Shown piece after piece: positions 23,744 through 57,000 of a stretch of DNA of 64,000 nt. This DNA is from Auricularia sp. M13 (taxonomy: Eukaryota > Basidiomycota > Agaricomycetes > Auriculariales > Auriculariaceae): positions 3,534,001-3,598,000 of the forward strand of contig CM073202.1 of NCBI GenBank assembly GCA_037042915.1, read 5' to 3'. A program made the translations under genes and the position numbers. The notes below the pieces were generated by a model. The model had not been told where the DNA came from. It worked only from the letters and a program-made list of their open reading frames with translations, and searched no databases. Each line of letters opens with the position of its first letter. Position 1 is the first letter of the stretch.

Positions 23744-23769
23744 AAGGTGCGGCGTCCCGACGCGCATTC

Positions 23770-27750: not shown

Positions 27751-27759
27751 ACCTCGCCG

Positions 27760-28910
27760 GAGTTAGCGGAGGTCGACGAAGTCTTCTCCGGAGCAGAGGA
27801 CGATGCTCCGGGAATAGAGACTCCCAGTCCAGTCAAGGCCGCGCGGACCGCCGGCGAGCGCTCGGGCTTGATGGGGGCAACGGGAGTCGCCGCGGAAGTG
27901 ACCCTCTTGTCCGCAGTCAAAGCAGGTGCGCTTGCGAGGGCCAGAGTTCCGAGTCCGGTTGCGATCCACGTCCATAGGCTTGACGTCAGGTTCACGCGCC
28001 GCGGCACTCGGAGCTCCGCTCGGCACTGCAGCTGGGGTGGAAGCAGATGTCGCCGGAGTGCGCCCGGTCGTTGGAGTCGAGGTCGGACCTCCGGTTCGCG
28101 CACCAGAGGTCGCCGGAGTTTTGCGGAAAGTCTGGCGCTCACGCCACTGCTGTTCCAGGCGGAGCGCCTCCTTCTTCAGCGCGTCCATGGTCACCGGAGC
28201 TTGGTCCAGAGCGTAGATCCGGTCCAGGAGGCGCGAGTTGAGCCCTTTCTTGAATTTCCGCTGGAGCTCATAGTCGGAAAAGCCGGAGAGCGCGGAGTAT
28301 GAGTCGAACTCCGTAATGAAGTCCTCAATAGAGCGAGAACCTTGCTCCATCGCATCAATCCGGTTGGCCGCGTCGCCCTTCTCGTCGGACATGACAAAGT
28401 TGAGCGCGAACTCCGAGAGGAAGTCCGGGAATGCGGAATAAGACGCCTGATTATCCATGAGGGTCTGCGTGACAGTTCCGGCCCAGGTAGCCGCGGAGCC
28501 GGACTTCATGTAGGACAACACAAAGATAATCCGACTCCGGACATCCGGAAACTGGCGTGGGCGTGACTCCATGTAGAGCCAGCATTGTCGGAGAAAGCGC
28601 CGGCCGTTGGTGCGATTTCCGTCAAACGCGTCCGGCGGGGCAACAGCGGAGCGGCCCTGATCCGGAGCAGAGCTCGCGCCGGAGCTCACGGCGGCTGGAG
28701 GCTGTGCCGGAGTTGCATGCGCAGCAGACCGCAGTTGATCAGCCATCAGTCGGGCTGCTTCTTGTTGCACAGCCAGACGATGCTGTGTCCGGGCTAGCTC
28801 CTCATCACGTTCCTCAATGATGGAGCGTAACCTAGCAACCTCCATGAGGGGGTCCTCAATGGGTGCGGCGTCCTCGAAGTCCTCTGAGCCGGTACCAAGT
28901 CCGGGCATCG
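27760..28910 (-). other. Gypsy gag region
   Basis: The open region begins MPGLGTGSEDFEDAAPIEDP at an ATG near 28908. It shows a retrotransposon gag capsid-like stretch (DAFDGNRTNGRRFLRQCWLY, then FVLSYMKSGSAATWA) and a C-terminal zinc knuckle CFDCGQEGHFRGDSRC. Gag would package the element RNA. It lies next to the 5' LTR, as in related elements. Confidence 0.85.
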
Positions 28911-38097: not shown

Positions 38098-38461
38098 TCA
38101 GTCAAAAGATTCAAAGTCAAAGACGATTGAAAATCCGTGACCGTACGGTACGTCAACGCCTGCAATGGCTCCCCAGGGGAAGCCTGTGACTTTGATCACG
38201 ACTTCCTGTCCTTCGAATGCAGTGAGGCTTGGGCTGAGCGCATCGAATAAAGCGCGCGCTTCAGTCTTGCGCGGCGTGTGTTCTCCTCTGCTCGTTCGCA
38301 GATCCACCTCGAGCGTTTCCAGCACCGGTAAGACGGGGAGACGGCTCAACTGCGACCAGAGATACTTTGCATCTCGAACGCAAAACACGAGATTACCGGG
38401 CACGCGTTCGTAGCGCGGAGTCCACTTCGGACTGACGATGATGATCAGCTCGGTGAGTACA
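38098..38461 (-). pseudogene. C-terminal part of an F-box gene, cut off by the 13.8-kb element
   Basis: The frame reads VLTELIIIVSPKWTPRYERV ... LPVLPVLETLEVDLRTSRGE ... VIKVTGFPWGAIAGVDV and stops at 38098, the pattern of family C-termini (compare LPSLDELHVVLAQHPI in the gene at 59419-60750). It begins at the edge of the large element. Together with 53320-52245 it forms one gene: joining ...VDQLSVL to TELIIIV... across one copy of the 6-base duplication restores the frame exactly. Confidence 0.85.
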
Positions 38462-38546
38462 TATGGTGTACCGAGTGTACATTTAATAAATTCATTTCCC
38501 CGATGCCTTCCCGAGTTTCCGCGATGTGTCTTCAAGTTTTCTCACA
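38462..38546 (+). repeat. left terminal inverted repeat of the giant element
   Basis: Shares with the right end TATGGTGTACC, AGTGTACATTTAATAAA, TTTCCCCGATG, CCCGAGTTTCCGCGATGTG and AAGTTTT, in order and spacing. Subterminal GTTTCCGC motifs follow. Confidence 0.9.
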
Positions 38547-39379
38547 TATTTTACTTGAGTCACAATCCAAGGTTCCCGGGCATGCGGTGGGAATTTTCTC
38601 TCACATGAATCGGTTTGTTCTCTCGATTGGCAGTTTCCGCTCTCAGGTGACTGTTTCCGCCCGCGGGACGTTGGGTTTCCGCGCGCGATGTTGGGTTTCC
38701 GCACGCGACACCGCGTTTCCGCGCGTCAACTCCGTGCAACCCCCGCAATTTTCCGAATATGCACATGACTCAAATTTCAACAGGCAGGCCGAAATGCCAT
38801 ATTGCGAGGTCAGAGCACAGAATTGGCTGCATTATCAGGCATTGGCTACATCAGGGTCAAGAAATACAGCAAAGGATTCAGCTGACAGCAAGAAAGTGAT
38901 AGCAAAGACGAGCAAGAGAGCAGGACCAGGACAACAGACAGCAGAGAACAGAACGGCAATATCTAACAGTATCATACGAGTCTTTCGGTCAGCATTGCCA
39001 TCGGCGTGGGTAATAGCAATGCGCTACGCGAATGGGTCATGCACTGGCTGGCGCGGACGACGGGCAGGCAGGCTACGCAAGTCGATCGGAAGAGCTGGGC
39101 CTGTTGGGAGTACACAGAAGCAATTAGATGTGCACAGCAAAAAGTACGGTTCAGCTCACCCGCTGGCTGCACTGCAGGCGGTTCCGGATCACCCTTGGCA
39201 CCAGGAGAATCTACAGCCCGATCATTGTCCGAGTCTATGGGATGTCAGTCAATGAGCACGGTAAAAGCAGTAGCGCACCAATTACAACGGGTTCCGTCTC
39301 GGTTTTGAAGTCGAAGTCACGCAATCCGAACAGTCGTCGATCCGCGGGTGTGGTGAGCCATGCGTCAACTGTAAAATGT

Positions 39380-40904
39380 TATAAGTGAGGTCCACGGGAG
39401 CACCGACGTCTTACCGTCAAACACAGTGTCCGCTTTGCCTTTCGTCACCGGGGCATCCACCTTGGCCTTCTTCTTTGGGCGCAGGTTTGGTGCGGTTTTC
39501 TTCGGTGCTGCCACAGCAGTCGTGTTGTCGCTCTCGCTTGACTCGTCTAAGAACTGTGCATTAGAGCTCACTCCCAGAGATAAAATATGTAGTTACCGAC
39601 GACGGCGCTCTTGCGTTTATGCCGGAGGTCGTCACTCTCTGAGTCGTCATCTGAGTGTTGTCAATAACAACGTCTTGCAAATACCATGTGCAATGTACAT
39701 ACCGGGGAGCCGAGACGTGCTTGCCGATGCAGCCGAAGGAATGGCTAAGATAACTCGTCAATAACAGCACCAATGGATACGACAGATACTTGCCCTTCTT
39801 CTGCCCCCATGACATGTAAATTTTGCTTGGGATTCGAACACGGGAGACTAACGGAATATCAGCGGTAATCGGTAAAAGTTGGTCCGCAAACTCACTCAAG
39901 AAAATAATATGATTAGCGACGGACTGGTTCTGCGTAATGCGCGCCTGCACCAAGTCGTCACCTGCTGGGCAGTCGTCATCGACAAGCACCAGTTTGTTTG
40001 AGCCCATGTGACTGAGGACGCGCCAAACTGCATCTGTGCCCTGATCCCACTGGTAGTCATCATACTCATCTGCAAGTTCCTCAGCGACGTTGTCCAGCAG
40101 CCAGGCGTGAGCCTCAGGAAACAGCGCCGCGACCAGTCGATCAGCACGCTCGTGGTCCCAAGTTGGATCGATGGCGGTCAACTTGTTCATGTGGGCGCGG
40201 TGCACGAGCTTGTAGCGCTTGTAAGTACTCAGAACACCCTTGTCGGGCTTCTTGAATGTCGTGACTTCGACGTCCTGCCGCTCCTCAGTTTCACCTGCGG
40301 ACTGGCTGCACATCAGCAGATGTGCACGTAGACAACGGAAAACACACCAGCCCAAGTGGAATCAGCACCACCGTTGCCACCTGCACGGGCTTGGATGCAG
40401 ATGACGGGCGGCCCTGGTTGGGTTCAGCAGTCAGTAAATCAAGATATCTTGTGACGTACTCCTTTGCCTTTGCCTTTGGTGACAGTGCGTCCGGTCAAAC
40501 CAGCAAAGGCCTCGCTGACCCTGGGCGACCGTCGTTTTTGGTCGTATCTTGTGCTTGGCACGCCGAGGGTCAGCCTGCGCGCTGAGCAAAGACGTCGTCC
40601 ACGGTTGTGTTGATGTTGTCCTCCTCGTTGCTGAAGAAGCTGTTGTCCGAGTCCACCTCATCGCTAAGAAATTATGAATTAAATGTGCAGAAGGACATGC
40701 AGAGTGAGCAGCTTACTTGGCCACCTCTTTTCCCTTGGCCTTCTTGCCCTTCCGCGTCTGGTGCTCCGCTGGCTCATCCGCATCGTCGTCGTCATCGACA
40801 TGGTCTTCGACAGGGTGCTTGCAGCGAGCACAGAGCTTTCGAGGTAGCGTAGAGCCCTTGAACGCCTTGCAAAGGCAGACCTCGATGGTGCAGCCACGCG
40901 GCAT
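39380..40904 (-). CDS. multi-exon gene of unknown function, cargo of the giant element
   Basis: Exon 1 (40904-40717) starts MPRGCTIEVCLCKAFKGSTL. It carries closely spaced Cys and His (C-x4-C-x-C ... LCARCKHPVEDH), which may bind zinc, then an acidic run (DDDDDADEP) and a basic one (RKGKKAKGK). A 53-base intron (40716-40664, GTAAGC...CTTAG) leads in phase to exon 2 (DEVDSDNSFFSNEEDNINTT...). Further left, a block at about 40310-39780 reads YKLVHRAHMNKLTAIDPTWD ... ADRLVAALFPEAHAWLLDNV. A block at 39571-39380 reads DESSESDNTTAVAAPKKTAP then a basic NLRPKKKAKVDA. Splicing between the later blocks is not resolved. Acidic and basic runs suggest a nuclear protein. I do not know the family. Confidence 0.5.
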
Positions 40905-41191
40905 TGTCGATGGCCGGTGCTCTCGGTGTGCGAGCAAGAGAGGCAATTACACCCGGATCCCCGATTCCAGAACGTCCGGCTGCGCCAGCAAACACCTTGC
41001 TTGGCTTGCTTCTTACATTTCCGAACACAACCCCACGCTTGTAACCCCCACCAACCTCGCAGACAAAATTACTAAAGAATTCCCAGTCTCATATTCAACA
41101 TGTGCTAGGTCTTCGGAAATGCAAACTGTTCAACCAGTGGAAGTTTTGTGACTAGGCCTGTGCCCGGGATTCGATAAAATAAACAAATGCT

Positions 41192-41262
41192 TGATCAGAG
41201 AATCGAACCCTCGCCTCAAAGGCACACCAGGTAACCTCAGTAGGTAAACCACTTGGCCATCG
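41192..41262 (-). ncRNA. tRNA-like relic (A box and B box), perhaps a SINE head
   Basis: On the minus strand an A box TGGCCAAGTGG (41259-41249) and a B box GGTTCGATTC (41209-41200) stand at roughly tRNA spacing. The T arm mostly pairs, but the 5' and 3' acceptor arms do not match. So it is not an intact tRNA gene; a decayed tRNA or a tRNA-derived SINE head would fit. Confidence 0.3.
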
Positions 41263-41401
41263 TCACTTATGTGACAACACCAAGCCTCTCCGTCTAGTTG
41301 TGTTTCCGGAACCAACTGGCTAGTTACAGAACAACTTGCTATTGAGTCACATGCTAGCGATCCTGAAAATCCTGCATCTGCTTACGCCGTTCTCGCCGTT
41401 C

Positions 41402-42151
41402 TCACCGGATTGATGACCGCGGAGTCCGGCGGCGCTGGTCACTCAATCTTGTCTTCCTCCCATCCAACTTCCAAGCAGCAACAATATCTAGGCCCTCCTC
41501 ATCCACCCGCCGCTGTGCTTCATAATTTTTGGAGCATGCATCGGCGGGCTCTTGGCTGCCATTGCGCTGCGCCGCCAGGGTCATGCCGTCAAGGTACAAT
41601 TTTCGGGTTGTAGGAGATGATCCCACGATCATCGCGGACTGACAGTAGCCCAGCTGTACGAGCAGTCGAAATGGTCGAGTGAGGTCGGCCTGGCCGTTGG
41701 CCAGCCCCCAACGCGACACGGATGCTGCTCAAGCTCGGCTGCTCACCCGAGCGCATGCGCGTCGTGAACCAGGAAGGTGTACGCATGCCTCTCGTCCCAT
41801 ATTACCATGTGGTGCTTGTGATCTGAGAATGTGTATGGCGGTCTAGATGCATATCGTGCACTGGGGTCGGGAAGTCCTCCCATGACCGTTCCTTGGTGGC
41901 CTCGGGCATCCATCTGTGAGAGGACACAGAGAAAACAACCCAGATTATGAGGATTATGAGAGATACTGGATACTTCTATGTGCGTGAAACGATTGCACAC
42001 TCTGCCGAATGCCATTAATATAGCACTCGTCGACGATGGGGCATAGCCTAGCAAGCTCTGCGGTTATGTCATATAGTTGATTCAAGCCTCCAAGGGCTGT
42101 ATTTGAAATCAGGGGAGTGGCACTTGAAGATTCAAGGTGGGACGATATCAA
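41402..42151 (-). other. unassigned open frames
   Basis: Several minus-strand frames here look protein-like in parts (LYDITAELARLCPIVDECYI at about 42080-42020, HHMVIWDERHAYTFLV near 41800, and LLVQLGYCQSAMIVGSSPTT near 41640). I cannot connect them with splice sites or name a family. They may be exons of one gene or relics. Confidence 0.25.
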
Positions 42152-42266
42152 GTTTCACTGATAATCCGGTGTATTTGTCCTTCGACAGCTCACCAAATGT
42201 CACATTTGAAGCAAATGATCAATTAGTAAGGCACAGTGAGTGCAGATACTGCTGAATTAGACCATT

Positions 42267-42322
42267 AGGGCGTTTCACGATTCGTTTTTGAGGCCGTTTT
42301 TTGGTCATTTTGATGGCGTTTT
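42267..42322 (+). repeat. left TIR of the Harbinger element
   Basis: 56 bases identical to the reverse complement of 45846-45901. A further inverted piece of the TIR (GAATCGTGAAAC, about 42376) follows, so the left end can also fold on itself. Confidence 0.9.
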
Positions 42323-42612
42323 TTGAGCCATTTTTTGGTCGTTTTGGAGTCAAAAATGCCATCAAAAACGACTTGAATCGTGAAACCCCCCTCTGGGCAA
42401 CCGTTTTTGATCTCATTTTTGGATTCCTTTTGCTCTGCCGGATGACAGGCCGCGAGTGGCATGCCGGCACCTCACCGGCGCTAAACACGGACTTGAGATA
42501 GCAAAGAACCCGAACAAAGGCCGCCGTTCGACGTGGCACTGAGTATGACCGAACAGAGTCCGTTCAACGTGGCACCACGCTGCTTGCTACATTTGTGTGC
42601 ATACTGCTGAGC

Positions 42613-42618
42613 TATATA
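42613..42618 (+). promoter_or_regulatory. TATA box of the Harbinger transposase gene
   Basis: GAGCTATATACTCG lies about 55 bases before the ATG at 42670. Confidence 0.5.
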
Positions 42619-42669
42619 CTCGCTCCTCACATGTGGTTCTGGCTCTGTTTCTTCTGACAGTTACTCGAC

Positions 42670-44139
42670 ATGCCTGCCCTCTCACACCGTGCTAGAGTCA
42701 TCCGGGACATCATTTATGATGCTCTCGAGGCCCAGGAGCTTCACCAGACTGCCGCCAACGATGCTGACGATACCGCTCACCTCCGGCGGCTGCGCCTTCG
42801 TGACGCTGATGCCGACCTATCCGATGGAAGCTCCAGCGGTTCCATCTCTCTCCGTCGCCCAGCTTCTGACGATGAGGACGAGGTGTACATGGCTAACATG
42901 CATACTACTGAGGAGGCTCTCGCAATCCTCGCCAGTATCCGTGTGCTGGAGCCTGGTCCTGGTGTGCCGAAGGCGCCGCAGCTCTCTCTTGTCCTCGAGG
43001 ACTTCTATACCTGTGACGCCAAGCGCTTTCAGCGAAACCTACGCTGTTCACCCAGAGTCTTTGATGCCATCGTGGAGATGCTGGAGTACGACTCTGTCTT
43101 CAGCAACAACTCTCACCATGCTCAGATGCCGGCTCGTGCCCAAATCGCCATCGCCCTATACAGGTTTGGGCACTTTGGGAACGCCGTGTCCGTCGAGAGT
43201 GTTGCACAGTGGGCGGGTGTTTCTGCGGGCATGGTCTACAACGCAACACAGCGTGTCATGCTTGCGCTGCTCGCCCAACATGATGCTGTTGTTCGCTGGC
43301 CCGATGCGGAGGAGAAAGAGGACGCAAAGCAGTGGGTCCAGTCCATCTCATGTCCCGAATGGAGGAACGGCTTCTGTATGGTTGATGGAACACTGGTGCC
43401 CTTGTTTGAGAAGCCAGGATGGCACGGAGAGGCATATTTCTCTCGCAAGTCCAACTATGCTCTGAACGTTCAGGTATTTTGGCCAATTGATGCTATGCGT
43501 GTACTGAGCGAGATGTAGATAGTGAATTTGCCAAATAGCATCATCATCGACTACGTGCTCGGCCACTGTGGTAGTGCTCATGATTCAACGTGCTTCGCGG
43601 ACAGTCGGATTGCAACCAACCATGCTACACTTCTCCCTCAAGGGGAATGGGTGTGGGCAGACTCAGCATATGCTGTTCAAGAGTGGTGCATCCCACCGTA
43701 CAAGGGTGCCGCTGCCAAGGAGCAAGAGAATCAGAGATTCAACTACTATCTCTCAGCCGTAAGTTGAATCCTCATGTACAGCCCACCCACTAATAACCCA
43801 CAGGTCCGTGTCAAATCAGAGCATACTATGGGCATCTTGAAGGGTCGCTTTTGCTCACTCAAGGATTTGCGACAGCAGATAAGCAACGAGCGCGCACACC
43901 GTATGGCGTTGGCTTGGATACGATGCTGCATCATCCTGCACAACATAATCGGACGCCTCGTAGGGGATACAGAGGATCCGGACTTCATCGCTGAGATGCT
44001 GCATATTGGACTAGAGGATGAAGATGGGGACGGGGACGTCGGTGTCTACGATGGGGCTGGTATTCACCATGTGCAACGCTTATCCGTGGGACAACGAAAG
44101 CGTGAGTGGTTGAAGGAACAGCTGCTACGATACGTGTAG
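42670..44139 (+). CDS. Harbinger transposase (HARBI1-like DDE nuclease)
   Basis: Exons 42670-43473, 43519-43758 and 43804-44139 are separated by two 45-base introns (GTATTT...TAG and GTAAGT...CAG), both phase 0. The product is 459 residues with no break. The middle has an HTH-like stretch (VESVAQWAGVSAGMVYNATQ). The DDE_4 domain follows: first D in FCMVDGTLVPLF, second D in VLGHCGSAHDSTCF, then WVWADSAYAVQEW, and the region of the catalytic E in KSEHTMGILKGRFCSL. It cuts and pastes the element into 3-base AT-rich targets and usually needs the partner protein encoded at 45658-44201 to enter the nucleus and bind the ends. Confidence 0.93.
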
Positions 44140-44200
44140 CGATTATTCGGTGTATCTACAGTAGCGATTAACGAGCGACATAGGGTATAGAATGCTGTCC

Positions 44201-45658
44201 TCAGAACCCGATGCCCGGGTCTAGTCCGCCAAGTCCCGCAAACGCACCATCTGCGCCTGCACCCGCACCCATACCCGCACCGGCACCGGGAAGAGGCTGC
44301 GGTGCACCAAGCCCACCCATCGCCGGAAGCCCCCCTTGCATGGGGAAGTTGCCACGCTGCGCGAGCGCGATCTGCAGATCGTAGCGCTTGAGCTCAAGTT
44401 GAAGCTGCCGGTTTGCCTGTGCTTCGCGCGCCTGCAGCTCACGCTCCTGAAGAGCACGCTCGTGCTCGAGATCCATTCGACGGCGCTTCAAACTCGCGTC
44501 CTCCATGATCTCATCGTGTTCCAGATGGCGCTTCCGATCGAGCCGTTTGGATTCAGCGATGCGTGCCTCACGGAGTACCTCAAACGCGTTCTGCTTCCCC
44601 TTGGCGGGCTTTGACGGCGTGGACTGGCGCTGTTGCGACGAAGAACGAGACCGAGATGCTGGGCCGGATGCGGTGCGCGGCGCTGGCGCAGATCGCGATG
44701 CAGACACCGGGCGCACGGCACGAGGGGCGGGAGCCGGAGCGCTGTCATCTGAGTGACGATCGTCAGCAGACGCGCTGCGGCTGCGGTCGTCCACGCTATC
44801 GTCGATCTCGTCAAAGAAGTCCGTATCATCGTCTTCGTTAGCCTGCACGCACGTGAGTCTCCATGCAGCAGAAGTCATCGAGCCTGCACACCTTGGGGTC
44901 GGCCTCCAGCTCGTCCTGCTCCTCCATGCCAAGCTCCGGCGTTCCAGCATCGGTCTGCGGAGCCTTGAATAGATCTGCGGCTGCCGCGGCGTGGTCGACA
45001 CCGGGCTCCGCAGCGCTGACGCCGCAGGGTGCATAGTTGGGGAGCTCACACCAAAAGCCATGCAGGTCGTCCCACCAAGGCCATTCCGCACGAATTTCTT
45101 CTGCGTGGCACGTCAGACATGTCGCGCGTGCGCGGGATGCGTTTATCGCACCAATCTGGTTGTTGATACCAGGCGTGGGCTGCAGGATGCCGCTGCCGGT
45201 CTGCCCGAGCTTCTTGCGGTACTCCTTGTAGTCGGTCTTGAGCCTGGAAGATTTTTTGTCGTGTCAGTCGGCCAGAAAATAAATTAACGAGCCAAAGCGC
45301 ACCGTGCCAGCCGCTGACCAACTGAATCGGCATATTTCTTCTTGTTGGCCTCAAAGGCAGACACATCGTCGGGGTCTATGAAGATGGCGGCGGCCAACTG
45401 AGCGTAGAGCTGGGACTTGGAGTCCTTGCCAGTCTGCCGTTTGCGGTCGTCCTTCTTTGCGTCGCCAACGGAGTCAGAAAAAAGCTTGATACGGAACGAC
45501 GGGTTCTGGGCAAGGTAGGCTACCAGGCGGTCGGTCAACTCAGGACGCTTGGCCCATTCGATGCGGGTGCGGGTGGTGGGGGTGGTGTTGCCGCCGGTGT
45601 CGCCCTTGGCGGCAGCTGCAGCAGCTCCGGACCGCTTCGTGACTTTGCCGGCGGCCAT
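44201..45658 (-). CDS. Harbinger partner protein (Myb/SANT-like DNA binder)
   Basis: Exons are 45658-45303, 45243-44892 and 44842-44201; introns of 59 and 49 bases keep the frame. The product is 449 residues. The N-terminus (RIEWAKRPELTDRLVAYLAQ, then a lysine-rich loop and QLYAQLAAAIF) looks like the Myb/SANT-type DNA-binding region of Harbinger partner proteins. An acidic middle (EDDDTDFFDEIDDSVDD) and Ser/Arg stretch follow. Then comes a long charged helix, probably coiled coil (RLDRKRHLEHDEIMEDASLK, RRRMDLEHERALQERELQAR), and a Gly/Ala-rich tail. In other Harbingers this protein recruits the transposase to the TIRs. Confidence 0.85.
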
Positions 45659-45845
45659 GACGGCAGGAGGACAAGCGTGCGGCCGACGACGGAGGTAAAC
45701 GAGAGGGCAAAGGAGGTCTGAAAAAAACGGACGAAAAACGAGTGCAGAAACAGCCTCGAGGCTGTTTCTGCAAAGCCGTTTTTTCGGTCTTTTCCGGTCG
45801 TTTTTGAGGAGTTCCGGGGTCCCATTTTTTGCTAAAACGGTTTCT

Positions 45846-45901
45846 AAAACGCCATCAAAATGACCAAAAAACGGCCTCAAAAACGAATCGTGAAACGCCC
45901 T
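45846..45901 (-). repeat. right TIR of the Harbinger element
   Basis: 56 bases, exact inverted match of 42267-42322. Confidence 0.9.
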
Positions 45902-45904
45902 ATT

Positions 45905-46719
45905 AACTACTGTCTGAGAAAGTGTGATGAAGCCCGGATACCTGGTGGGTGCGCCAAGGTCAGTCAGTCCTCTTCGGCGCTCGACTTCAGGTTTCAGAGT
46001 TGAGAAATTTTCCAAGCAGGCATGTAAATAACTCTGTTCTATATGAAAATTGATGCAGATCTGGACTCTCAATTCATGTTGCACTAAATATTTTGGAAGG
46101 TTGAATATACGAGTCACGTGCGACGCGGTAGGGAACACGGTGTACAAATAGAGCATCACAACATGGCTGTTGCTCTTGCCAGACGCGTCTCGTCGATACC
46201 GATGTGCAGCGCACCTCAGCATGCTGCCACAGCTGCATCTAGGCGCCTATACGGCCACCTAGAGGTGTATGCTGCAGCGTGCTCATCATGCTCGCCGAGC
46301 ACAGCCGTGCACTACTACCATTTGAACATATGACCAGGTGGGTGTGTGGCTTTGTGGCCACAAAAATATTCTTACATAATCAGAGTAGACTTGTCGCAGA
46401 TGTCTGTTCACTGCCTAGGTTTTTGGCCATTGTGCTCATGGCGCTCGGTCGCAACGCAACTGCGAGAATGCTGTACGGCGCGTGTCTCTCTCTTCTCCCA
46501 GCAGCCACCGTCACATGCCCATTCACGTCGCAGAAGCAGAGGACAATGCAGTCAAGCTCGAGCTCGCGTGCCGGTGGTGGCGGCCCCAAATTCAACTTGC
46601 CAGTGTGTCGGCCGAAGACGGTCGTCAGTGCTGTCGGTCACACACTCGCGCGAGGCACTCGCGCCCACCGACATTGGCCACCCATGGCCGGCCGGTGCGC
46701 CAGGCCTGAGCACACGCAC
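45905..46719. other. giant-element DNA without recogn`ised gene
   Basis: Short frames only. This stretch lies between the Harbinger insert and the hairpin repeat array. Confidence 0.3.
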
Positions 46720-47660
46720 GTGCATATGACACGCCCAGCAACCCGTACGAATGTACGGGTTTGCAGGAGGTTCGCGCGGGCTCAGCGGCTGGCGGCGCAC
46801 TCGCGCCCACCGACATCGGCCCGGCTGCAGGTGGCCAATGTTGGCGGGCGCTAGTGGCCAGCCTGCGCGGCACACCTGGGCGTGTGCGCGGGCATACGAC
46901 ACGCCCAGCGGCCCGTACAAGTGTACGGGTTTGCTGGGCGTTCGCACGCGGTCGACAGCCGGCAGTGCACTCGCGCCCGCCGACGTCGGCCACTTGCAGC
47001 CGGCCTGCGCTGCACACCTGGGCGCGCGCACGCGCATACGATGCGCCCAGCAGCCCGTACAAACGTACGGGTTTGCTGGGGGTCCGCGCGGGCTCAGCGG
47101 CCGACAGCGCACTCGCGCCTGCTGACATCGGCCACTCGCGCGCGCCGACGATGGCCACCCACGGCCGGCCTGCGCCGCACGCCTGGGCGTGTGCGCGGGC
47201 CTACGACGCGCCCAGCGGGTCGTACAAGTGTACGGGTTTGCTGGGCGTTCGCACGCGCTCGACAGCCGGCGGCGCACTCGCGCCCGCCGACATCGGCCAC
47301 TCACGCGCGCCGACGATGGCCTGGGGCCACCCACAGCCGGCTTGTGCCGCACGCCTGGGCGTGTGCGCGCACATATGACAAGCGCAGCCACTTGTACGGG
47401 CTGCTGGGCGTATGCGCGGGCTCAGCGGCCGGCGCCGCACTCGCGCCCGCCGACATCGGCCACCCGCATACGACGCACTCAGCATCCCGTACAAGTGTAC
47501 GGGTTTGCTGGGAGCTCGTGCGGGCTCAGCGGCCGACAGCGCACTCGTGCCCGCTGACATCGGCCACTCGCGCCCGCCGACGACGCGCCCAGCAGCCCGT
47601 ACAAGTGTACAGGTTTGCTGGGCGTTGGCACGGGCTCAACAGCGCGCGCGCCTTCACGCA
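46720..47660 (+). repeat. minisatellite with a hairpin in each unit
   Basis: Seven units, 103-170 bases apart, with the hairpin arm GTACGGG (or its variant) starting at 46753, 46923, 47065, 47230, 47394, 47497 and 47617. The best copies read CGCCCAGCA, two bases, CCGTACAAGTGTACGGG, two bases, TGCTGGGCG, an almost perfect 39-base inverted repeat. Between hairpins lies a GC-rich spacer with GCGCACTCGCGCCCGCCGAC and ATCGGCCAC. Units 1 and 5 are degenerate. Long open frames on both strands follow from the repeat and are not regarded as genes. Confidence 0.85.
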
Positions 47661-48200
47661 TGAAATACCCGCGCTACAGACCGCACCTCTGTATGGGCTG
47701 ATAGGGGTCACATGCACCCTGCGAGGTTGAGGGTGCCACATGCGTGCGCGGGTTGACTCGAGGACATTCGGCGCTGTACAGCGTGACGTGCTCTTTAGTA
47801 GCTGCCACGGCTGACACTCACACTGGGCGTTAGTCCCCGGGTGTTTGTGTTGCTCGTGGCTGTTGCTAGGAACAGTCTTCTGTATGAGGTGCAGGCTGCC
47901 TGACTAAATTCATCTATCCCTGATAGTTGAGCGTGGTTGCGCCCTTCAAGGCTGCCCCTCTGCTCCTATCTCTAACGGGATTCAGCCCAACATGCGGGAC
48001 ATGCGGTTCAGGCGTGGCCGCGTGCAGCATTGCGGGCCGCACCGCACGTTTAAGTCCTGCAGGCGTGACTGCCATATCAATGCGCATCGACAATGTCGAC
48101 TTCAGCGGCACTGTGCTTGCATCGGGCACACGGGAAGGGCTGACTTTACACAGTAAACGCCTCTGGGCGTGCCTAGATTTCGAGTACAAGATGGTAAATA
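47661..48200. other. no gene recognised
   Basis: This stretch separates the hairpin array from the double-BTB gene and includes that gene's 3' flank. A + strand frame of 95 codons has no support. Confidence 0.35.
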
Positions 48201-49765
48201 TTACATCTTTTTGACCAATGCCTGGATCCAGCCCAGTGGTCGGTCTATAATACCAGACGACATGATACGTTGGCGCTGGCCAGCAACACAGTCAGGGTGG
48301 ACGTTGGGGAAAAACTCAGCATAAACTTCGTCAAGGGCCTTGTGCAACGAGATCGGCCGGTTGGGGTGCAAGAGCATTGGCGCGACGTTGAGGCGCCAGA
48401 GATACTCCCAATGTGGGCGACAGGTATGCTCGTGTCGCGTCTCGTCGTCTGTAATGCAGGCCTGAGATGCTGGACAGAGCTCGGCAAAGTGCTCGGCAAA
48501 GAAGAGGCGATTCTTCGTGACTTTGGCGAAGAGCATGGCGTATTCGGTGAAGAAGGGAGTTGATGAGTTGGGCGGACAGGTAAAGGAGGTCAAGCACTTG
48601 ATGTCTGCAAGAGATAGGTCGCACAGCGACGAATAGAGAAGTAGGTCAATGGCCGATGCACGCCACTGCGGGATATTGTATCGGTCTGCAAGCCACAGCT
48701 TCTTTGCTGCAGATATCTCGCCTGTGCGACCATCGAGTGCGGTGGCGCAGAGGGCGCTTTCGGGCTCCATGTGGAGGTAATCGCACAAGTCTAGGATGGA
48801 CAGAAGCTCATGCGTGCCTCTGGTTTCGAGATGACATTGGTGCTCAGCTCTACCCAGAGGAATTTAATAGGTGAATCATAGTGCAGCCCGAAACGCGCAC
48901 CTGAGTGGCATTATCCACTGAAGGAAGGCAACCCAGTCTTGGATCGTTCCACGATGCAGGAAGATGGGACATTCTACCGTTCCAGTCTCTCCTGCGGCGG
49001 TTTCTGCGGTGGACAGCATCTGTGCAAAGATGTCCGACCTTGCAGCAAGGATCGGCGACGGAAGGCGAAGCAAAACATTACTAGCAGAAACCTACACGGT
49101 GTCACTTGGGCGAGAACCACGCGGATAGAGAGAGAACTTACACAGAAAACAAGGCCTTCGTGGAGCCTGTCAAAATAGTCCGGGTGATTAGTACGCGCTG
49201 GCCGCTGACTGTCGAGCATCTCCTGTTCGTCATTGGCGATGCTGCGACCAGTGAGCTCTCGCTGGGCAGCGCGGTGCTCTGAAGTAAAGCCAAGAGTCTC
49301 AGAAAGCATGATTATGGACTGGAGATCGCGAGTCGTGCGCGCCGAGAGGGATTGTTGATCTAGTATACTGGTATCAAGCCATAATAAGCTATAAACTCAC
49401 ATTGCCCGTAAATGTGAAATACCTCATAGGCATAACATAGGCGAGCAGCGCTTCATAGTCTTCGATAGATCCGTCCTTCAGCAGAACGGCTGTGGCATCC
49501 ATTCGGCCGACTTCAGGATCGTTTTGCTGTAGCTTGACGACGTTGGCGAAGAATTTTGAGCGTGCCGCAAGCAGTCCAGCTGGCAGCTTCAGCATGACAT
49601 TGCCGTTTGTAACCTAAAGCAGTGTCAGATCAGGGTGTATGACGGATCTTCATGAAGTTAAACACTAACAAGGCACTGGCAGGAGCCATCGACGACATAG
49701 TATTTAAGGTGGTAGGAAATTGGCGAGTTCTTGGCAGCTGCGCCGGCTTGACCGAGTTTAATCAT
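48201..49765 (-). CDS. double-BTB protein, cargo of the giant element
   Basis: Exons are 49765-49670, 49613-49423, 49367-49142, 49091-48901 and 48849-48201. The four introns (56, 55, 50 and 51 bases) all splice GT...AG in frame. The product is 450 residues and has two BTB-like modules. Module 1: KYYVVDGSCQCLVTNGNVML, KLPAGLLAARSKFFANVV, LLKDGSIEDYEALLAYVMPM. Module 2: TNHPDYFDRLHEGLVFCVSA, LLRLPSPILAARSDIFAQML, FLHRGTIQDWVAFLQWIMPL. The two central exons are both 191 bases with the same intron phases, so the modules arose by duplication within the gene. A long C-terminal helical region follows. BTB domains dimerise and often recruit Cul3 ligases or transcription partners; the role here is unknown. 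Confidence 0.8.
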
Positions 49766-49909
49766 TATATGAAGAGATAGGCTACTGGCGTGCACTACGC
49801 GCACAGCCAGGTTTGGGTAGGATAAGCAGTCGGTAGGGTCGCAAGTATCGGTGCCGGACGCGCTTTGAAGCTCGAACGCCTTCCTGTTTTGCAAGCCATC
49901 ATGTCGCTC

Positions 49910-51866
49910 CCGCACTTCCAGCTGGGCGATGGCCGCCACAGTTCCACACTGCATACCAGAAGCTTCAGGATGCCTACGAACATGGCTGCCGCCTCCTCGC
50001 TACAGGCGATGTCGACCCGGTCCGATTGCAAATTCACTTTGACCGCATCATCGACGATTGCAAACCGCTCCTGGAAGCCTTTGAGGCGTCAGATCTTCCC
50101 CGACGATGGGTGCTCAAGTGCGCCAATAAACTTGCAAAGCAGTCTGGATGTGTCCTTTCTGCAGCTGAGGCTGCTCGCGGTGTGTCAGTCATTTCATAAT
50201 CCATTTCGCTGCAAACACATGGGTTGATGCGACGGCTAGGGACAATGCCAAGACGGCGCAAATTCAGCCCGTTCGCGAGGAGCCAACGGGAAGCCGTGGG
50301 CGCCCTCGAAAGGACGTTGACATCCATTGGCTCAAGGAAGCGTTCCGACCCGGCCGCGCACTCAAGCGGTCTCGCATTGCCAAGTTGGCGGGTGTTCATC
50401 GGCATACACTTCGGGCGCGGATGCGCGAGGCGGGTATTTCAAAACCGTACGCTCAAGTTACCAACGACGAGCTTGATACTCTGATTCGTCATTATCGGCG
50501 TCGACGCCCAAACGCGGGCTATAGATTCATCCTCAGCCATCTTCGTATTCTGGGTCTGCACGTCCAGCGCGAGCGCGTCCTCTCGGCTATGCGCAGGGTG
50601 GACGGTGTTGGCATTGCCCTTCGCAAGCAGGGTAGCATCAAGCGCCGGACATACAAGGTCTCGCGCCCGCATGCACTGTGGCACATGGACGGCCACCACA
50701 AGCTTATTCGCTGGGGCATCGTCGTACATGGCATTGTTGATGGCTATTCCCGCCTCGTATGAAGCCCTAGCTCTGCTTTCTCTGCCGCTGACTGGGCTGC
50801 AGATAACAGGCATACGTGCAAGCGACAATAACAGAGCCACGACGGTCTTTTCGCTTTTCAAGAAGGCCATCCGCAAGTACAGCCTCCCCTCGCGCATGCG
50901 CGCTGACCGCGGGCGAGAAAACACAAAGGTCGCCGTCTACATGGTCATGTACCGTGGCCCCCATCGGGCGTCTTTCATTTGGGGCCCGTGCGTTGTGTCT
51001 TGTGATGGACAGTCATATGCTCACGCCAGGCTCAGCTCCACACGCAATACCCGGATCGAGCGCCTCTGGGGTGACCTCGGTCAGCAGTGCCTGCATCGGT
51101 GGCGCGCATTCTTCATGCGACTCGAGCGGCGACACAGTCTCGACCCCAATCGCCCTGTCCATCTTTGGCTCTTGCACCGACTCTTTCTTCCTGCTATCAA
51201 CACCGACCTGCTCGAGTTTCAGGCGAACTGGAATCATCATCCGATGTCGGGCCCTGACATGCAGGGACTCTCCCCGGTGGTACGTCTGACCAGCATATCT
51301 TTGCATGATTCCTTGACGGCATTTCAGGACAAGTGCTTCGAAGGGCAGACACTACATGGCGTGTACGTTGACGACTGCGACGGCGTGCATGCAGACATCA
51401 TTCAAGAATACTATGGCATTGTGAACGAAGACCGTGCAGGGCTGGAGGACGCCAGTGATTCGGATGATGAGATTGGTTCGTTCGTTGAGCATAGTGCAGC
51501 CATCAACTCACCGGTGTCCCGTTGACAGATATTGCGGACCAAATAGAGGAAGCGCAGGCGGCCAACGTTCACGCAACTGACCCGGTGTCAGTCCCAGAAA
51601 CCAACTGCCCACTCGCAGATAGTGAGGAGGTTGAGCTCTTCCTCGAGTGCTTCCAGCAGGTCTGTGATGCAAACTTCATCCCCCGAGGATTTGGCCTGCA
51701 CGACGACGAGTACGACGACAACTATCCCCCGCTGGAGTCGATCCCATATGGACGGCGTGGAAACCGTGAGCTCGAGGTTTCACTGCCAGACGAGGTGTGG
51801 TATCCACGTGCTGTGATCTGGGCTCAAGCTGCCTACACGCTCCATCGCTTTCTGGACTGTAATTAG
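49910..51866 (+). CDS. DDE integrase-like transposase (IS3EU type) of the giant element
   Basis: Exons run from about 49910 to 50183, then 50240-50756, 50803-50987, 51036-51475 and 51529-51866; the introns (56, 46, 48 and 53 bases) are consensus and in phase. The N-terminal exon reads YQKLQDAYEHGCRLLATGDV, but its start is unclear, with a frame slip or missed intron near 49950. An HTH follows (RSRIAKLAGVHRHTLRARMR). The rve catalytic core: first D in LWHMDGHHKLIRWG, ASDNNRATTVF, second D in MRADRGRENTKVAVYM, and E in STRNTRIERLWGD. It is the only transposase that belongs to the 13.8-kb element and lies near its right end, so it is the likely mover. The IS3EU label comes from memory of such proteins plus the 6-base duplication. 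Confidence 0.75.
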
Positions 51867-52159
51867 TGTGTGAATTGCTGAGTTATGAGCAGAGATCTTC
51901 GTTTGTGATTTGCTGTGATGCATGGATGCCTTGTATCTGAAATCAAGTGAAGTTGCCTGAAGGTGACCAGTAAGTGTCGTTTGCGCGAGCGCAAAGAATC
52001 CGAGTCAACATGAGCGGGAACCAGACACAAAAAATGCGGAAACTTGTCTTGCGCGCGGGAATCGCCAACTCCGAGCGGGAACTCGTTTCCGCGCGCGGAA
52101 ACCTATCCGCCTTCCTGGGAAACTACAACCAGCGGTGAAACGTGCATAAACGAAGTTCA

Positions 52160-52244
52160 GAAAATAAAACTTCGAATCACATCGCGGAAACTCGGGCAGA
52201 CATCGGGGAAACCATTTTATTAAATGTACACTTGGTACACCATA
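52160..52244 (-). repeat. right terminal inverted repeat of the giant element
   Basis: Inverted partner of 38462-38546, ending CACCATA at 52244, followed by AGTACA. Subterminal GTTTCCGCGCGCGG motifs lie inside. Confidence 0.9.
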
Positions 52245-53320
52245 AGTACAGATAGCTGATCGACGTCGCGCACGAAGAGCTCGAAGAGTTCGGACGTCAT
52301 TGTGAGCCGCCGGAGGGAAGAGAGATAGTGCCGGTCGGCCAGGAGCAATCGTACGATCTTCGACCGCCATACGTCGTCTTGAACGCTATGCCGCAGTTCC
52401 AGGGCGTGTTTATTTCCGTTGAGGAGATGCGCGACGATGCGCGTGCTGTCGCTGCCGCGTTCTTCGCGAGGAACCGAGAGCTCGATAGCGTTATTCAGGA
52501 TGGATGCGAAGTCCAGTTCGGCCAGAATGGGCGAGCACAGTTCCAGCGACTTGATCCGTGCTAGACTCGGAATTTGCCAGGTATTGCAGAGCGCGATGAG
52601 ATCCAGGTTGTCAAAGTCCGACCGCACGGCGCGGTGATGGTAAACAGAAGCTAAACGGAGCTGCGCGAGAGTCGGCGGCGGTGGGCCAGGCGGTAGGAGA
52701 GACGCACGGTGCACGTACAGATTCAGAACCAGAGTCTCCAGGCGCGGGAAGACCTCAAAGAGGCGGTATAAGAACGCGCAATTCTCATGCTCAGTTCCGG
52801 TCCCAAATTCGAGATCTGTCACGGTAGACAGCGCTGGGCAGCTTTCCGGCAGAATCAGCCTGGACAGATGGAGCCTGCGCAGTCTACCTGGGATCCCGCC
52901 GAAGAAATTCGAGGGAATAGCAGAGTTTACGCCTAGAAGACATTCGAGCAAAGGGGCGGGCCGAAGAAAAATCGATTCATCGTCAAAGTCTGTGCTCCAT
53001 TGAAGCAAACGGATACGATGCATATGCTTTTTGACGACGTTCCACAGGTCGGAAGATAGCCGACTCGCGCCCCAATGGGCGTAATGAAGCGATACCGGAT
53101 AGTGGTGGCGACGAGCAAGTACGAGATCGACAAGAAGGTGGCCGCTGCGACTCGAGGCGTCCAGATCGATATCCGACCAGACTTCGCCAAAGTCGAGCGC
53201 CGTAGACCGCCAGAAACGGCAGACATGTAGAATCGGCAGACGCTTGAATATGTGGTGCGGCAGAAACGTGAAGCAGCCTGCCAGTGTTTCGACAGGAAGG
53301 GAATCGATCCCCTTTACCGC
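52245..53320 (-). pseudogene. N-terminal part of an F-box gene, cut off by the 13.8-kb element
   Basis: The frame reads DSLPVETLAGCFTFLPHHIF KR... as F-box, then HVCRFWRSTALDFGEVWSDI, then leucine-rich repeats (LLECLLGVNSAIPSNFFGGI, CPALSTVTDLEFG, LFEVFPRLETLVLNLYV). It ends at ...VDQLSVL at the element edge; reading on into the element gives a few alien codons and a stop. The start exon is not clear: the frame opens near 53315 without an ATG, so a short 5' exon is probably missing from my model. The rest of the gene is at 38461-38098. Confidence 0.8.
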
Positions 53321-53845
53321 ACCGTCACGCGCGCTGGAGACGAGTCAGCGACGGCGCTCAGGTCTAAAACGACGTACGCACGGTGTTGTATTCATAGCGT
53401 AACTATTGACGGGCCTGTCGGTCGTGGCGATACTCTCGTGCTCGCTGGACGACGGTAAGAGTTGCTCTGTTTGCGACTGCTTGGTCCAGCTTTTGAGTCC
53501 GGCGTTTCCGCAGTCTGTCTGCTCCGTAAAATAAATATTAAGGAGTTCACGGTGAGCTCTACTAATATAAGCATGATGTAGACCTTACAAACGCCAGCCA
53601 ACTGCGATCCCCCGGAAGAGCGACTGAAAATGCATAGCACTCACAGTCTCGTATTTACACTTGCCGGGTTGTGGGAAAACGGTTCTTTGACGAACGAACG
53701 AGAATGCTCTGAACGTTTCCATTTAGATAAGCGCGCCATTGTACCATGCGCTGCTCGAGCGACTTGTGCGCCGGAATGAGCAACGACGCCAGGTAGCAAC
53801 TAATGGCGCTGTACTCGTTACTACAAGATGCATGCCGGTTGGCTG
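53321..53845. other. intergenic, no gene recognised
   Basis: It probably holds the 5' end and promoter of the interrupted F-box gene. No domain-bearing frame is present. Confidence 0.35.
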
Positions 53846-54053: not shown

Positions 54054-57000
54054 TCAGCCACAGCGAGCTACGCCAATGCGTTCTCGAAGTTCCTCGTACT
54101 GTACGCGCGGTAGTGCCTTCGTGAAGAAATCTGCGAGATTGTCGGCAGAGGCAACATGAATGAGCTTGAGGTCTCCAGCAGCTACGTGGTCACGTATGAA
54201 ATGGTGGGCTATATCGATATGTTTCGCCTTTGAGTCGCTTCGATGTGCGAGCGAGGCTGCAATTGCGCTCGTGTTGTCGACGCGCACTTCCGAAGGACCG
54301 ACCGGCGGGAACCCTAGCTCTTGAAGCAGTGTGCGAAGCCATAGCACCTCCGAAGCAGCGCCGCTTGCTGCAACGTATTCTGCCTCCATCGAAGATTTTG
54401 CTACCGTCCGTTGTTTGCGCGACGCCCATGAGATCGGCCCGTTGGCTAATTTGAAAACCTGTCCAGACATCGACTTGCGGTCTACCGTGTCTTGCGCCCA
54501 GTCTGCATCGACGAAAGATTCTAGCATGGGTATGCCGCTGCTGCGAGAATACGTAATGCCCATGTCGCGAGTGCCCTTGAGATATCGCAGTACGCGTTTC
54601 GCTGCCGTCAGGTGAACAGGACCCGGGTTCGCGAGGTGTTGGCTAAGTTGAGACGTGCGAAGCTGTATATCGGGGCGCGCGCCGCGGGCTGCGTAGTGCA
54701 GAGAACCAATGAGCTGTTGGTACTCGGCTCGTCGGGACTCGTCGACCTCCCCCTCGAATAAACTGAGCTTGATGTTCTGGTCCGCGGGCGTTGGCGAAGG
54801 GTTGCAATCAGACATACCAAAACGCGACAGCAATTTGTTGATATACTGCGTCTGCGTAATTTTGGTAGTCGTGAGGTCGGCGCTGCGACGGACTTCCAGG
54901 CCCACTACTTGCGTTATCTCTCCAAGATCGACAATGTCAAATCGTTTGGAGATTTCGCGCTTGAGTGCGTTGTTGTCGTCGGCAGAAGTAGCAAGGAGAG
55001 TCATGTCGTCTACGTGAACTGCGACAATCCACAGCTTCTCGCCCGATCTACGTATGTAGACGCAGCGGTCGGAGACGAGTCGCGTGAAGCCCATAGCAAT
55101 AAACGCGGCGTCGAGAGTGGCGTTCCAGACGAGAGCGGACTGTTTGAGACCGTAGATGGATCTCAGCAGTTTGAGAACACTGTCTGAGCCGTCATGTAAT
55201 CCCGGTGGCTGCTCCATATATATCTCCTCGTTCAGCGTCCCATTCAGATATGCACCGACCACGTCTACGACTTGAACGTTGAGCTGAAGCTCTGTTGCAA
55301 TGGCCAGGAGGCAACGAAGTGTTTCGAGGCGCACCACTGGTGAGAAAGTTTCGAAATAGTCGACACCAGCTTGCTGGGTGAAGCCGCGCGCTACGAGCCT
55401 AGCCTTGTATTTGACAATTTCGCCTCGGTCGTTGCGCTTGATTTTGAAAACCCACTTGCAGCTAATTGCACGACGTTCCCGTGGAAGCTTCGTCCTGCGG
55501 AAAGTATTGAACCGTCGGTGCTGAGCCATTTCCGCCTCAATTGCCTCGCGCCATTTGTCTGCGTCTGGTCGGCGCATAGCTTCGGCAAAGCTTGCTGGCT
55601 CGTCATCTAGAGCTTGTGCACTGAATACGAAGTCGAGAACATCCACGTCTTCATGTTCCTGAGTCGCAGGATGGTCAGGTTCGTCGGCGCTCGATTCAGC
55701 TTGCCTGCTCGCTTCGCGTGCTTGTTGGCGTGCCTTGGCTGCTCGAGAATCGGGATTACCAATGAGCTGATAATCAAGGCGCTCTTGCTGCGCGAGACGC
55801 AAGCTACGTTTTGCAGTCTCAGGGCGTGATCGTACTGGTGACTTGTTGCGCGGCAATGGCTGAGGTGCCGGCATTGCCTGTGGCGTTGGCGGACGAGCTA
55901 TAGGTGGCTGAGGTGCTGGCGGTGGAATGGCCAAGGCTGGCGCAGGGAGTCCGGCAGGAGCTGGCTGAGGAAGTGGATTCGCTTGCGGTAGCGGCATTGC
56001 GGGAATTGCCGGCGTGTCCAAATCCTCGGACGCGAGAGATGGAGATCGCGGCTGTACGGGAGTGTTGTCATCTAGCACACGCTCATGACGTATTTGAGCA
56101 TAATCCGGTAATGGGAGCGGGTCTTCGCGTGGTCCAGATGTCTCCGTATGCTCCCCCTCAACCGGCACACTGGCGGCTTCAGCGCCAGCGGGCTGGTTGC
56201 TCTCGAAGATGACGCTGCGCGACATAAGTATTCGGTGGGTGTCCGCCTTGTAGTACCGATACGCGCGTGACTCCTCGGTGAAGCCGGTGAATATATGCTG
56301 CACCGATCTGTTGTCTAACTTCGTCCGCAATTGCTTTGGTCGATGGATCCAGATTTTCGACCCGAATTTGCGCAGATGTGCTATGCTCGGCACATGTCCC
56401 CATGCAGCTTCGTATGGAGACGTGTATGCGAGCGCGCGCGTGGGTAAGCGGTTCTTGATGTATACTGCATATAGTACCGCTTCAAACCATAGAAAGCTTG
56501 GCGCATCGCTGGCGAACAGCATTGCCCTCGCCATGTTGAGGACGGTAAGGTGGGCGCGCTCGACGATGCCATTTGATGACGAAGAGTACGGTGCCGTGAT
56601 TTGAAAGCGTATGCCTTGTTCAGCGCAGTACAGGCGCACTTGGTCGTTAAGGAACTCGAGCCCTTCGTCGACTTGTAAGCACTTTAGTCGTACACCGAAT
56701 TGCGTCATGAGCCACGCTTGGTACCACTTGATGTGCTGCAATTGATTGCCTTTCGTTGGCGCGCCGTAGACAACCGAATAGCGTGTTCTGCGATCGACGA
56801 AATGAGTGAAGTACTCTTCACCATTGATCGCTCGCCGCGGCGCTCGTCCAAAGACATCCACGTGAACGATTTCGCCGATATGCATGAGCGATTCATCGCG
56901 CTGTGATGCGTTTGGGAACGGGCGTTTAACGTGTTTTGCTCGTATACAAGCGGTGCACGTCGGAGTCTTGTCATTGAGGTTCGTAACATGGACGCCAGTG

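Follow-up and report, generated by a model that had tools for sequence, protein, structure and literature searches.

An IS3EU-like transposon with a divergent BTB gene and a zinc-knuckle gene in an interrupted F-box gene of Auricularia sp. M13

Background

A stretch of 64,000 nucleotides from the basidiomycete Auricularia sp. M13 (GenBank assembly GCA_037042915.1, CM073202.1, positions 3,534,001 to 3,598,000; the whole stretch is called the window here) contains an F-box gene that is interrupted by a large DNA transposon. We consider it likely that this transposon is of the IS3EU kind and that its transposase gene, a double BTB gene and a zinc-knuckle gene are the element's own working set. 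The evidence that carries this reading is the constant company of the transposase gene: a divergent BTB gene lies upstream of it on the opposite strand at all 11 examined loci of one transposase clade (clade A), which fall into seven families, and because of this constancy the BTB gene would be an old working part of the element. The BTB and zinc-knuckle genes are both read as long-standing accessory genes of the lineage, and the BTB gene does not look like chance baggage; the initial annotation, made from the letters of the window alone, had called them cargo, and with a BTB gene at every examined clade-A locus their status as passengers is not supported.

IS3EU transposons are described as elements with TA..TA termini (TAYGG..CCRTA in fungi), terminal inverted repeats (TIRs) of more than 30 bp and 6-bp target site duplications (TSDs), and their transposase is characterized there as an IS3/IS481-like DDE enzyme without the HHCC domain (Kojima 2023, PMC10045372; Kojima 2025, PMC12730594).

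Results

Element anatomy and insertion site

The transposon proper extends from 38462 to 52244 (features in Table 1), has the termini TATGG..CCATA and is bounded by two copies of AGTACA. The inverted ends, the duplicated AGTACA and the subterminal repeats that the initial annotation had pointed out were all recovered: the inverted arms are 84 nt long and 87% complementary (38457-38540 and 52166-52249), with about 79 bp of each arm inside the element, and the subterminal sequence GTTTCCGCG is found three times on the + strand at the left end, once on the + and twice on the - strand at the right end, and nowhere in the window outside the element. The proposed F-box insertion with its in-frame join was reproduced as well. 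When the element and one AGTACA are removed, the flanks join as a single 485-residue stop-to-stop frame in which ...VDQLSVL is followed directly by TELIIIVSP...; the rejoined frame matches the Pfam F-box-like model with an E value of 0.0024 and 18.1 bits, i.e. below the model cut-off of 24.3. We read this as the insertion of a cut-and-paste DNA transposon into the F-box gene.

A genome search with the ends had been named at the outset as a check that could refute the reading. In the 52.1-Mb genome, a 105-base query from the left end gave four matches, the pair in the window and a facing pair at C13:88821-99714, which are the ends of two elements that both carry these genes; for this family the check thus favoured the initial reading. 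The C13 copy bears its own 6-bp duplication (CCCGGT) on both sides. The two copies are 98.6-99.1% identical across 1.8, 2.0 and 6.3 kb, and their alignment contains 102 substitutions and 10 indels; 83 of the substitutions are transitions, 61 of them of the CpG type (raw counts). Such CpG-type transitions would fit methylated, decaying copies and may reflect cytosine methylation.

The claim that all 13.8 kb entered as a unit did not hold, as 3.64 kb of the window copy is a later nested transposon of the PIF/Harbinger type that is absent from the C13 copy. The nested element (3,638 bp, 42264-45901 in the comparison with C13) has 69-nt inverted ends that match at 93% (42266-42334 and 45834-45902) and encodes a DDE_Tnp_4 transposase (Pfam E value 3.1e-31). 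PIF/Harbinger insertions duplicate 3 bp or TA at the target, and the empty site in C13 permits a 2-3-bp TA/TTA duplication plus extra bases. Because these 3,638 bp are missing in the C13 copy, the length of the ancestral element is put at about 10.1 kb; it had three recognised genes plus an array, and the 3.6-kb Harbinger element inserted later. The C13 copy has 766 bp of its own that are absent from the window (C13:90619-91384, with TGTTA..TAACA ends and a 5-bp repeat); by these features it is a solo-long terminal repeat (LTR)-like insertion, and it sits in the zinc-knuckle gene.

Transposase and superfamily placement

The transposase, modelled with 549 amino acids in the C13 copy, matches Pfam rva_4 with an E value of 1.6e-64 and has the DDE residues D223, D280 and E315. 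Its best NCBIfam matches are the bacterial models IS481 (4.7e-16) and IS3 (5e-15), both under those models' cut-offs, and no Pfam match to the integrase zinc-binding (HHCC) domain was found in it. An exact 6-bp TSD is present at all four insertions of the lineage with both ends read, i.e. AGTACA in the window, CCCGGT on C13, GGCCGT on C6 and ATCGCG on C2, and TATGG..CCATA termini are found in the window, C13 and C2 elements and at the right end of the C9 element. Placed by the published descriptions and the profile matches, the window element probably belongs to the IS3EU/GingerRoot kind, and the IS3EU-like identity suggested initially is supported by the ends, the 6-bp duplication and the IS481/IS3-like DDE transposase.

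The BTB gene and its pairing with clade-A transposases

A genome search with the transposase gave 57 exon-wise matches, and the rva_4 profile gave 36. In a tree of 14 transposases, 8 rows form clade A and 6 form clade B, and the split is supported at 100/100; two further loci lie outside the tree, of which C1:9.07M is a near copy of C4 (99.7%) and C10:2307k one of C10:56k (89-94% in the transposase). Across the clade-A families, the larger exon matches mostly share 42-52% identity with the query transposase. The 11 clade-A loci with the divergent BTB gene are those of the window, C13, C9:736k, C6:3738k, C11:2640k, C3:3633k, C1:5825k, C4:3749k, C1:9066k, C10:2307k and C10:56k, and their seven families are window plus C13, C9, C6 plus C11, C3, C1:5.8M, C4 plus C1:9.07M, and the two C10 loci. 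The C10:2291k match was counted as the distant half of the C10:2307k transposase gene; this clade-A gene is apparently split by 13.8 kb (C10:2292454-2306261).

The predicted starts of the two genes are separated by 48 bp at C3, 68 bp at both C10 loci, 86 bp at C1, 134 bp at C4 and C1:9.07M, 135 bp in the window, and about 200-300 bp at C6 and C11; at C9 the distance is 2.3 kb, with a short Harbinger-type element nested in between. The intergenic region of the window element is likely a bidirectional promoter. All gene models come from a codon model trained on nine long open reading frames (ORFs) of the window, several of which are retrotransposon ORFs, so the exon borders are approximate. The two halves of the window BTB protein are 32% identical (E value 8e-14), and the label "double BTB" given in the initial annotation is therefore right; Pfam recognises the second half alone. 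A structure predicted from the single sequence of the C-terminal BTB exon had a mean pLDDT (predicted local distance difference test) of 51 and was not used.

When the window BTB protein was searched against the genome, 13 matches were obtained, ten of them in the two copies and the others at C9, C6 and C11 beside clade-A transposases. The Pfam BTB profile adds the C3 and C1 loci (C1 just under the cut-off), and a profile built from the BTB proteins of these five families finds C4 and C1:9.07M (5e-25 each) and both C10 loci (8e-13 and 1e-7), none of which was in its training set. At six clade-B loci the same profile gives no match up to an E value of 10 in the 528-920 bases covered upstream. 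The Pfam BTB E values are 2.5e-4 for the window, 5e-5 for C3, 3.8e-6 for C1 and 0.097 for C4 (below the cut-off), with none for C9. At least 28 matches to the Pfam BTB profile were counted in the genome, two adjoining clade-A transposases (C3 and C1) and 26 not beside rva_4 integrases; this is a lower bound, and the element BTBs that diverge most are missed by the profile. In a pairwise comparison that included 10 host BTB stretches, each of the seven element BTBs finds its best non-self match in another element BTB from its own transposase subclade (window with C9, C6 with C10, and C3, C1 and C4 together), and the BTB and transposase distances are correlated (Mantel r 0.64, a value reached by 25 of 5040 permutations).

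Zinc-knuckle gene

The gene of unknown, nuclear type in the initial annotation can now be described as a zinc-knuckle gene; a profile match links it to genes of two sister families (C6/C11 and C10). Its protein has a CxC..CxxC-H..H N-terminus, a conserved middle part and an acidic/basic tail, and all 16 of its genome matches lie in the two copies. A gene of the same plan is located near one end of the C6 element, and its product has 16 matches as well, at C6, at C11 and at two positions on C10 that are 16-18 kb away from the transposases there and presumably lie within the C10 elements. Pairwise comparison of the zinc-knuckle proteins gave weak matches in two collinear stretches (E values 0.011 and 0.014). 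With a profile of the C6 and C10 proteins from which the window gene was excluded, two window exons rank first and second of 1479 window ORFs (E values 0.034 and 0.44), and the spliced window protein reaches an E value of 3e-5 and 20.1 bits, the best of 2000 shuffles scoring 11.5. A profile already containing the window gene was set aside, since such circular use proves nothing. On the strength of the profile match, the zinc-knuckle gene is probably a third gene of the lineage, less certain than the BTB gene.

Hairpin array

The hairpin array noted initially was confirmed: it consists of about six units over 996 bp and is also present in the C13 copy, and the core GTACAAGTGTAC occurs in four of the six units. 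When the folds of the units were compared with 200 shuffles each, four of six had only 0-3 shuffles as stable and two were ordinary (20 and 24). Of 11 genome matches to a 221-base array query, 10 fall in the two copies and one, 50 bases long, on C9 (C9:708500-708549). This last match is 28 kb away from the C9 transposase, on its left side, and may mark a former extent of that element. The array core is similar to GTACCAAGTGTAC, a part of the right inverted end. Each end has one occurrence of GTAC-N(3-6)-GTAC and the array has six, and there is a single one in the 50.2 kb of window sequence that surrounds the element; this likeness is a lead only, because the pattern was chosen post hoc.

Selection

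In the coding parts compared between the window and C13 copies, there are 9 synonymous changes at 712 sites and 8 non-synonymous changes at 2351 sites (p 0.008), which suggests purifying selection over the compared exons; the C13 zinc-knuckle model, which runs through the LTR-like insertion, was not used. Between the C6 and C11 transposases, 11 synonymous and 5 non-synonymous changes were counted (p 1e-4), a ratio that points to selection on this gene.

Related elements in the genome

The C6 relative (C6:3731437-3748689) is 17,253 bp long and has 496-bp inverted ends that match at 89%, with GGCCGT at both sides; these ends and the flanking duplication ruled out C6 and C11 as a mere segmental duplication. 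Between the C6 inverted ends, proteins matching Syntaxin_2 (1.7e-24) and Nas2_N (1.9e-16) are encoded at C6:3743431-3745394 (L063), and these syntaxin-like and Nas2-like genes look like genes captured from the host. C6 and C11 DNA is 78-93% identical in most aligned pieces of this stretch and 98% in the zinc-knuckle part. C11 also contains a nested element of about 2.56 kb (C11:2642343-2644910; L062, L065); its subterminal repeats (CCGTGCGCA) are numerous, and CTGCATGCC appears to be its duplication of 8-9 bp.

The ends of the window, C13, C2 and C9 elements are alike (TATGGTGT.C...), while those of C6 start with TATCC. Ends of the C9 type have 14 genome matches, several in facing pairs. One such pair on C2 (2915328-2919127, 3.8 kb) is flanked by ATCGCG on both sides and contains no predicted gene above threshold, and is for that reason read as probably a non-autonomous relative. 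Other facing pairs are far apart (34.6 kb at C11:1084090-1118654 and 21.7 kb at C9:3605768-3627522) and could mark IS3EU elements of very large size or composite make-up, or else be ends that do not belong together. A 2.28-kb inverted repeat of 89% identity (C9:723482-725749 and 738553-740796) brackets the C9 BTB-transposase locus, its right arm lying just beyond the C9 right end. Elsewhere in the window, retrotransposon ORFs are found at 54054-58988 (-), 23768-28908 (-) and 19776-23201 (+); their types are a copia-type polyprotein (RVT_2, 2e-65), Ty3/gypsy-type ORFs with a chromodomain, and a reverse transcriptase (RVT_1, 1e-32).

Table 1. Features of the transposon and the interrupted gene (window positions)
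Feature	Position	Strand	Remarks
F-box gene, C-terminal part	38098..38455	-	host gene
Left TSD, AGTACA	38456..38461		6 bp
Left TIR	38462..38540	+	TATGGTGTACCGAGTGTACATTTAATAAA...; same end at C13:88821
Left subterminal repeats	38515..38725	+	GTTTCC(GCG)
Zinc-knuckle gene	39024..40904	-	435 aa; modelled exons 40904..39024
Nested PIF/Harbinger-type transposon	42264..45902		DDE gene on + strand at 42670-44139; absent from C13
Hairpin array	46655..47650	+	about six GC-rich units of ~110-170 bp with hairpin core, commonest GTACAAGTGTAC
Double BTB gene	48201..49765	-	440 aa; modelled exons 49765-49670, 49613-49423, 49367-49142, 49091-48901, 48819-48201
Intergenic region	49766..49900		135 bp between the two start codons of divergent genes
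Transposase gene	49901..51866	+	D..D-34-E integrase core; start codon from C13 model
Right subterminal repeats	51990..52165	-	GTTTCC(GCG)
Right TIR	52166..52244	-	
Right TSD, AGTACA	52245..52250		
F-box gene, N-terminal part	52251..53344	-	host gene

Discussion

We propose that the transposase and the BTB protein would be made together from their short shared promoter; the fixed divergent arrangement suggests co-expression and a role of the BTB gene in the element's cycle. The transposase would bind the inverted ends and the subterminal repeats, excise the element and join it to target cuts staggered by 6 bp, as the family and the anatomy imply for a DDE cut-and-paste enzyme. The BTB protein would serve the element through protein-protein contacts, and a helper role directed at chromatin or DNA is probable for the zinc-knuckle protein.

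Several observations weigh against a common working set of this kind. Neither copy has every gene open as modelled: the transposase is open in C13, but its first exon is a base shorter in the window; for the BTB gene it is the window that has the open copy, while the first BTB exon of C13 is a base shorter; and the C13 zinc-knuckle gene contains the insertion of about 760 bp. The BTB gene taken alone shows little selection (2 synonymous and 4 non-synonymous changes between window and C13; 1 and 0 between C6 and C11), and the zinc-knuckle gene has 2 synonymous and 3 non-synonymous changes between C6 and C11 (p 0.35). A genome search with the C6 zinc-knuckle protein fails to recover the window gene, and compared as a single sequence with the window ORFs the same protein gives an E value of about 3, equalled by 4 of 1000 shuffles. 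As to the BTB comparisons, each host stretch is one short exon of about 100 residues, and one of them (L082) was read in the wrong frame, which favours best matches among element BTBs; the C1 BTB matches the host stretch L076 better than it matches the window BTB, and the BTB tree is weak, with long branches, and does not join the window with C9. The five-family BTB profile gives seven weak matches in the PDB (E values 0.08-0.25), all of them BTB structures (ZBTB5, ZBTB8A and KBTBD4). The clade-B count covers six loci without a BTB match at E values up to 10 in the 528-920 bases upstream, and leaves out the clade-B-like C1:8883k and C5:4322k and the weak integrase matches C6:1459k and C1:8135k.

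The ends add further points of this kind. Both ends were read for three end types, those of the window, C6 and C2 (for the C9 type), and the C6 relative ends in TATCC..GGATA, i.e. in TA..TA yet not in TAYGG. For the C9 element, no left end could be located within 722000-738303, and the downstream flanks covered at C3, C1, C4 and C10 yielded no ends either. A pattern combining TSD and TIR gave 29 matches in the search for the C9 left end, none of them nearby on C9; this search carries no signal, because the backwards control gives 24.

BTB proteins are Cullin-3 adaptors or multimerising partners of other proteins. By analogy, the BTB protein of the element could be a substrate adaptor of the Cullin-3 type that removes a host silencing or repair factor, to which we give somewhat less than an even chance; this role is favoured because of the TET/JBP genes of other fungal transposons, for which an anti-silencing role is proposed by Kojima (2025, PMC12730594). 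A fuller version, in which a whole lineage of fungal IS3EU elements would have its own BTB adaptor, doubled in this family and expressed from the promoter region that the transposase uses, redirecting the host Cullin-3 ligase against a silencing factor as a counter-defence, with the zinc-knuckle protein as a helper and the array, by repeating the end motif, as decoy or loading sites for the transposase, is unlikely to be correct in all its parts.

PIF/Harbinger elements encode a second protein that helps their transposase, and the BTB and zinc-knuckle proteins might in the same way be direct cofactors of transposition that would help the transposase to multimerise, bind DNA or enter the nucleus, and no ubiquitin ligase would take part. 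We hold this explanation to be tenable, though less likely than not. The divergent pairing at every examined clade-A locus and the co-divergence of the two proteins fit a physical partner, BTB domains are known to multimerise and are doubled in the window family, and the array and inverted ends have the GTAC-N(3-6)-GTAC pattern in common; on the other side, the clade-B loci lack a BTB gene within the upstream bases covered, which suggests that a transposase of this type can manage without one.

A placement of the element outside IS3EU, for instance in Ginger or in an unnamed fungal integrase lineage, is improbable. The IS3EU placement was made by comparison with published descriptions: the ends and the TIR and TSD lengths agree with what the published description gives for IS3EU, and the NCBIfam ranking (IS481 and IS3 best, under cut-offs) and the lack of a Pfam HHCC match point in the same direction.

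That a host BTB gene was captured by chance and rides along as passive cargo is very improbable. BTB genes are common in this genome, mostly away from rva_4 integrases among the profile matches counted, and the C6 relative carries two apparently captured host genes; against this stand the constant head-to-head order in all seven families and the preference of all seven element BTBs for one another over the ten short host stretches. A segmental duplication or assembly artefact imitating a transposon can practically be dismissed: the exact ends were recovered from just two copies, but the two sites have distinct, exact 6-bp duplications, homology ends at the element termini in the stretches compared, and the F-box frame is restored on removal.

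The preferred reading remains an IS3EU-kind element with BTB and zinc-knuckle genes of its own. This genome has many BTB genes, some of which adjoin transposases. Should the module prove general among mushrooms, it would account for a share of the BTB expansion, would represent a transposon lineage with a fixed accessory gene, as TET/JBP is in other fungal transposons, and would allow one to test directly if the host ubiquitin system is recruited by DNA transposons.

Comparison with known systems

The nested 3.64-kb element encodes a DDE_Tnp_4 protein like PIF/Harbinger transposons, and the idea of a second helper protein is also shared with them; the transposase of the surrounding element is unrelated, and the surrounding element is not a Harbinger. 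Starships, found in Pezizomycotina, are likewise large fungal mobile elements with accessory genes, but they are moved by a tyrosine recombinase captain, whereas the window element has a DDE integrase-like transposase, TIRs and a TSD. In KCTD1 a Crypton-derived domain is joined to a BTB domain according to PMC3212892, which is a different matter.

The closest published relatives are IS3EU elements of rusts and Tuber, reported to carry a TET/JBP gene and an alpha-kinase gene oriented opposite to the transposase gene (Kojima 2025, PMC12730594); in the rust TET+ IS3EU the TET/JBP gene is placed between the other two (PMC12730594). The initial statement that no cargo-bearing IS3EU element had been described was thus wrong, and, with the rust and Tuber cases in print, a gene-bearing fungal IS3EU element is not new in kind. 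As described there, those elements resemble the present one as fungal IS3EU transposons with accessory genes, one of them opposite to the transposase, and differ in the genes themselves, TET/JBP and alpha-kinase there, BTB and zinc knuckle here. No Pfam match to TET/JBP or alpha-kinase was found in the scanned ORFs and models of the window element (TET/JBP was not searched genome-wide), and alpha-kinase was rejected as a companion gene, since none of its five genomic profile matches lies at a clade-A locus. The main text of PMC12730594 contains no occurrence of "BTB", and searches among open-licence papers found no report of a BTB gene in IS3EU. With IS3EU/GingerRoot elements in general, the window element shares the TATGG..CCATA ends, the TIRs of about 79 bp, the 6-bp TSD and a DDE transposase without the HHCC domain; it adds the divergent BTB gene and the zinc-knuckle gene, and in the window family an internal hairpin array. 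What is new is the gene set, with a divergent BTB gene and a zinc-knuckle gene as companions of the transposase in an IS3EU-like element.

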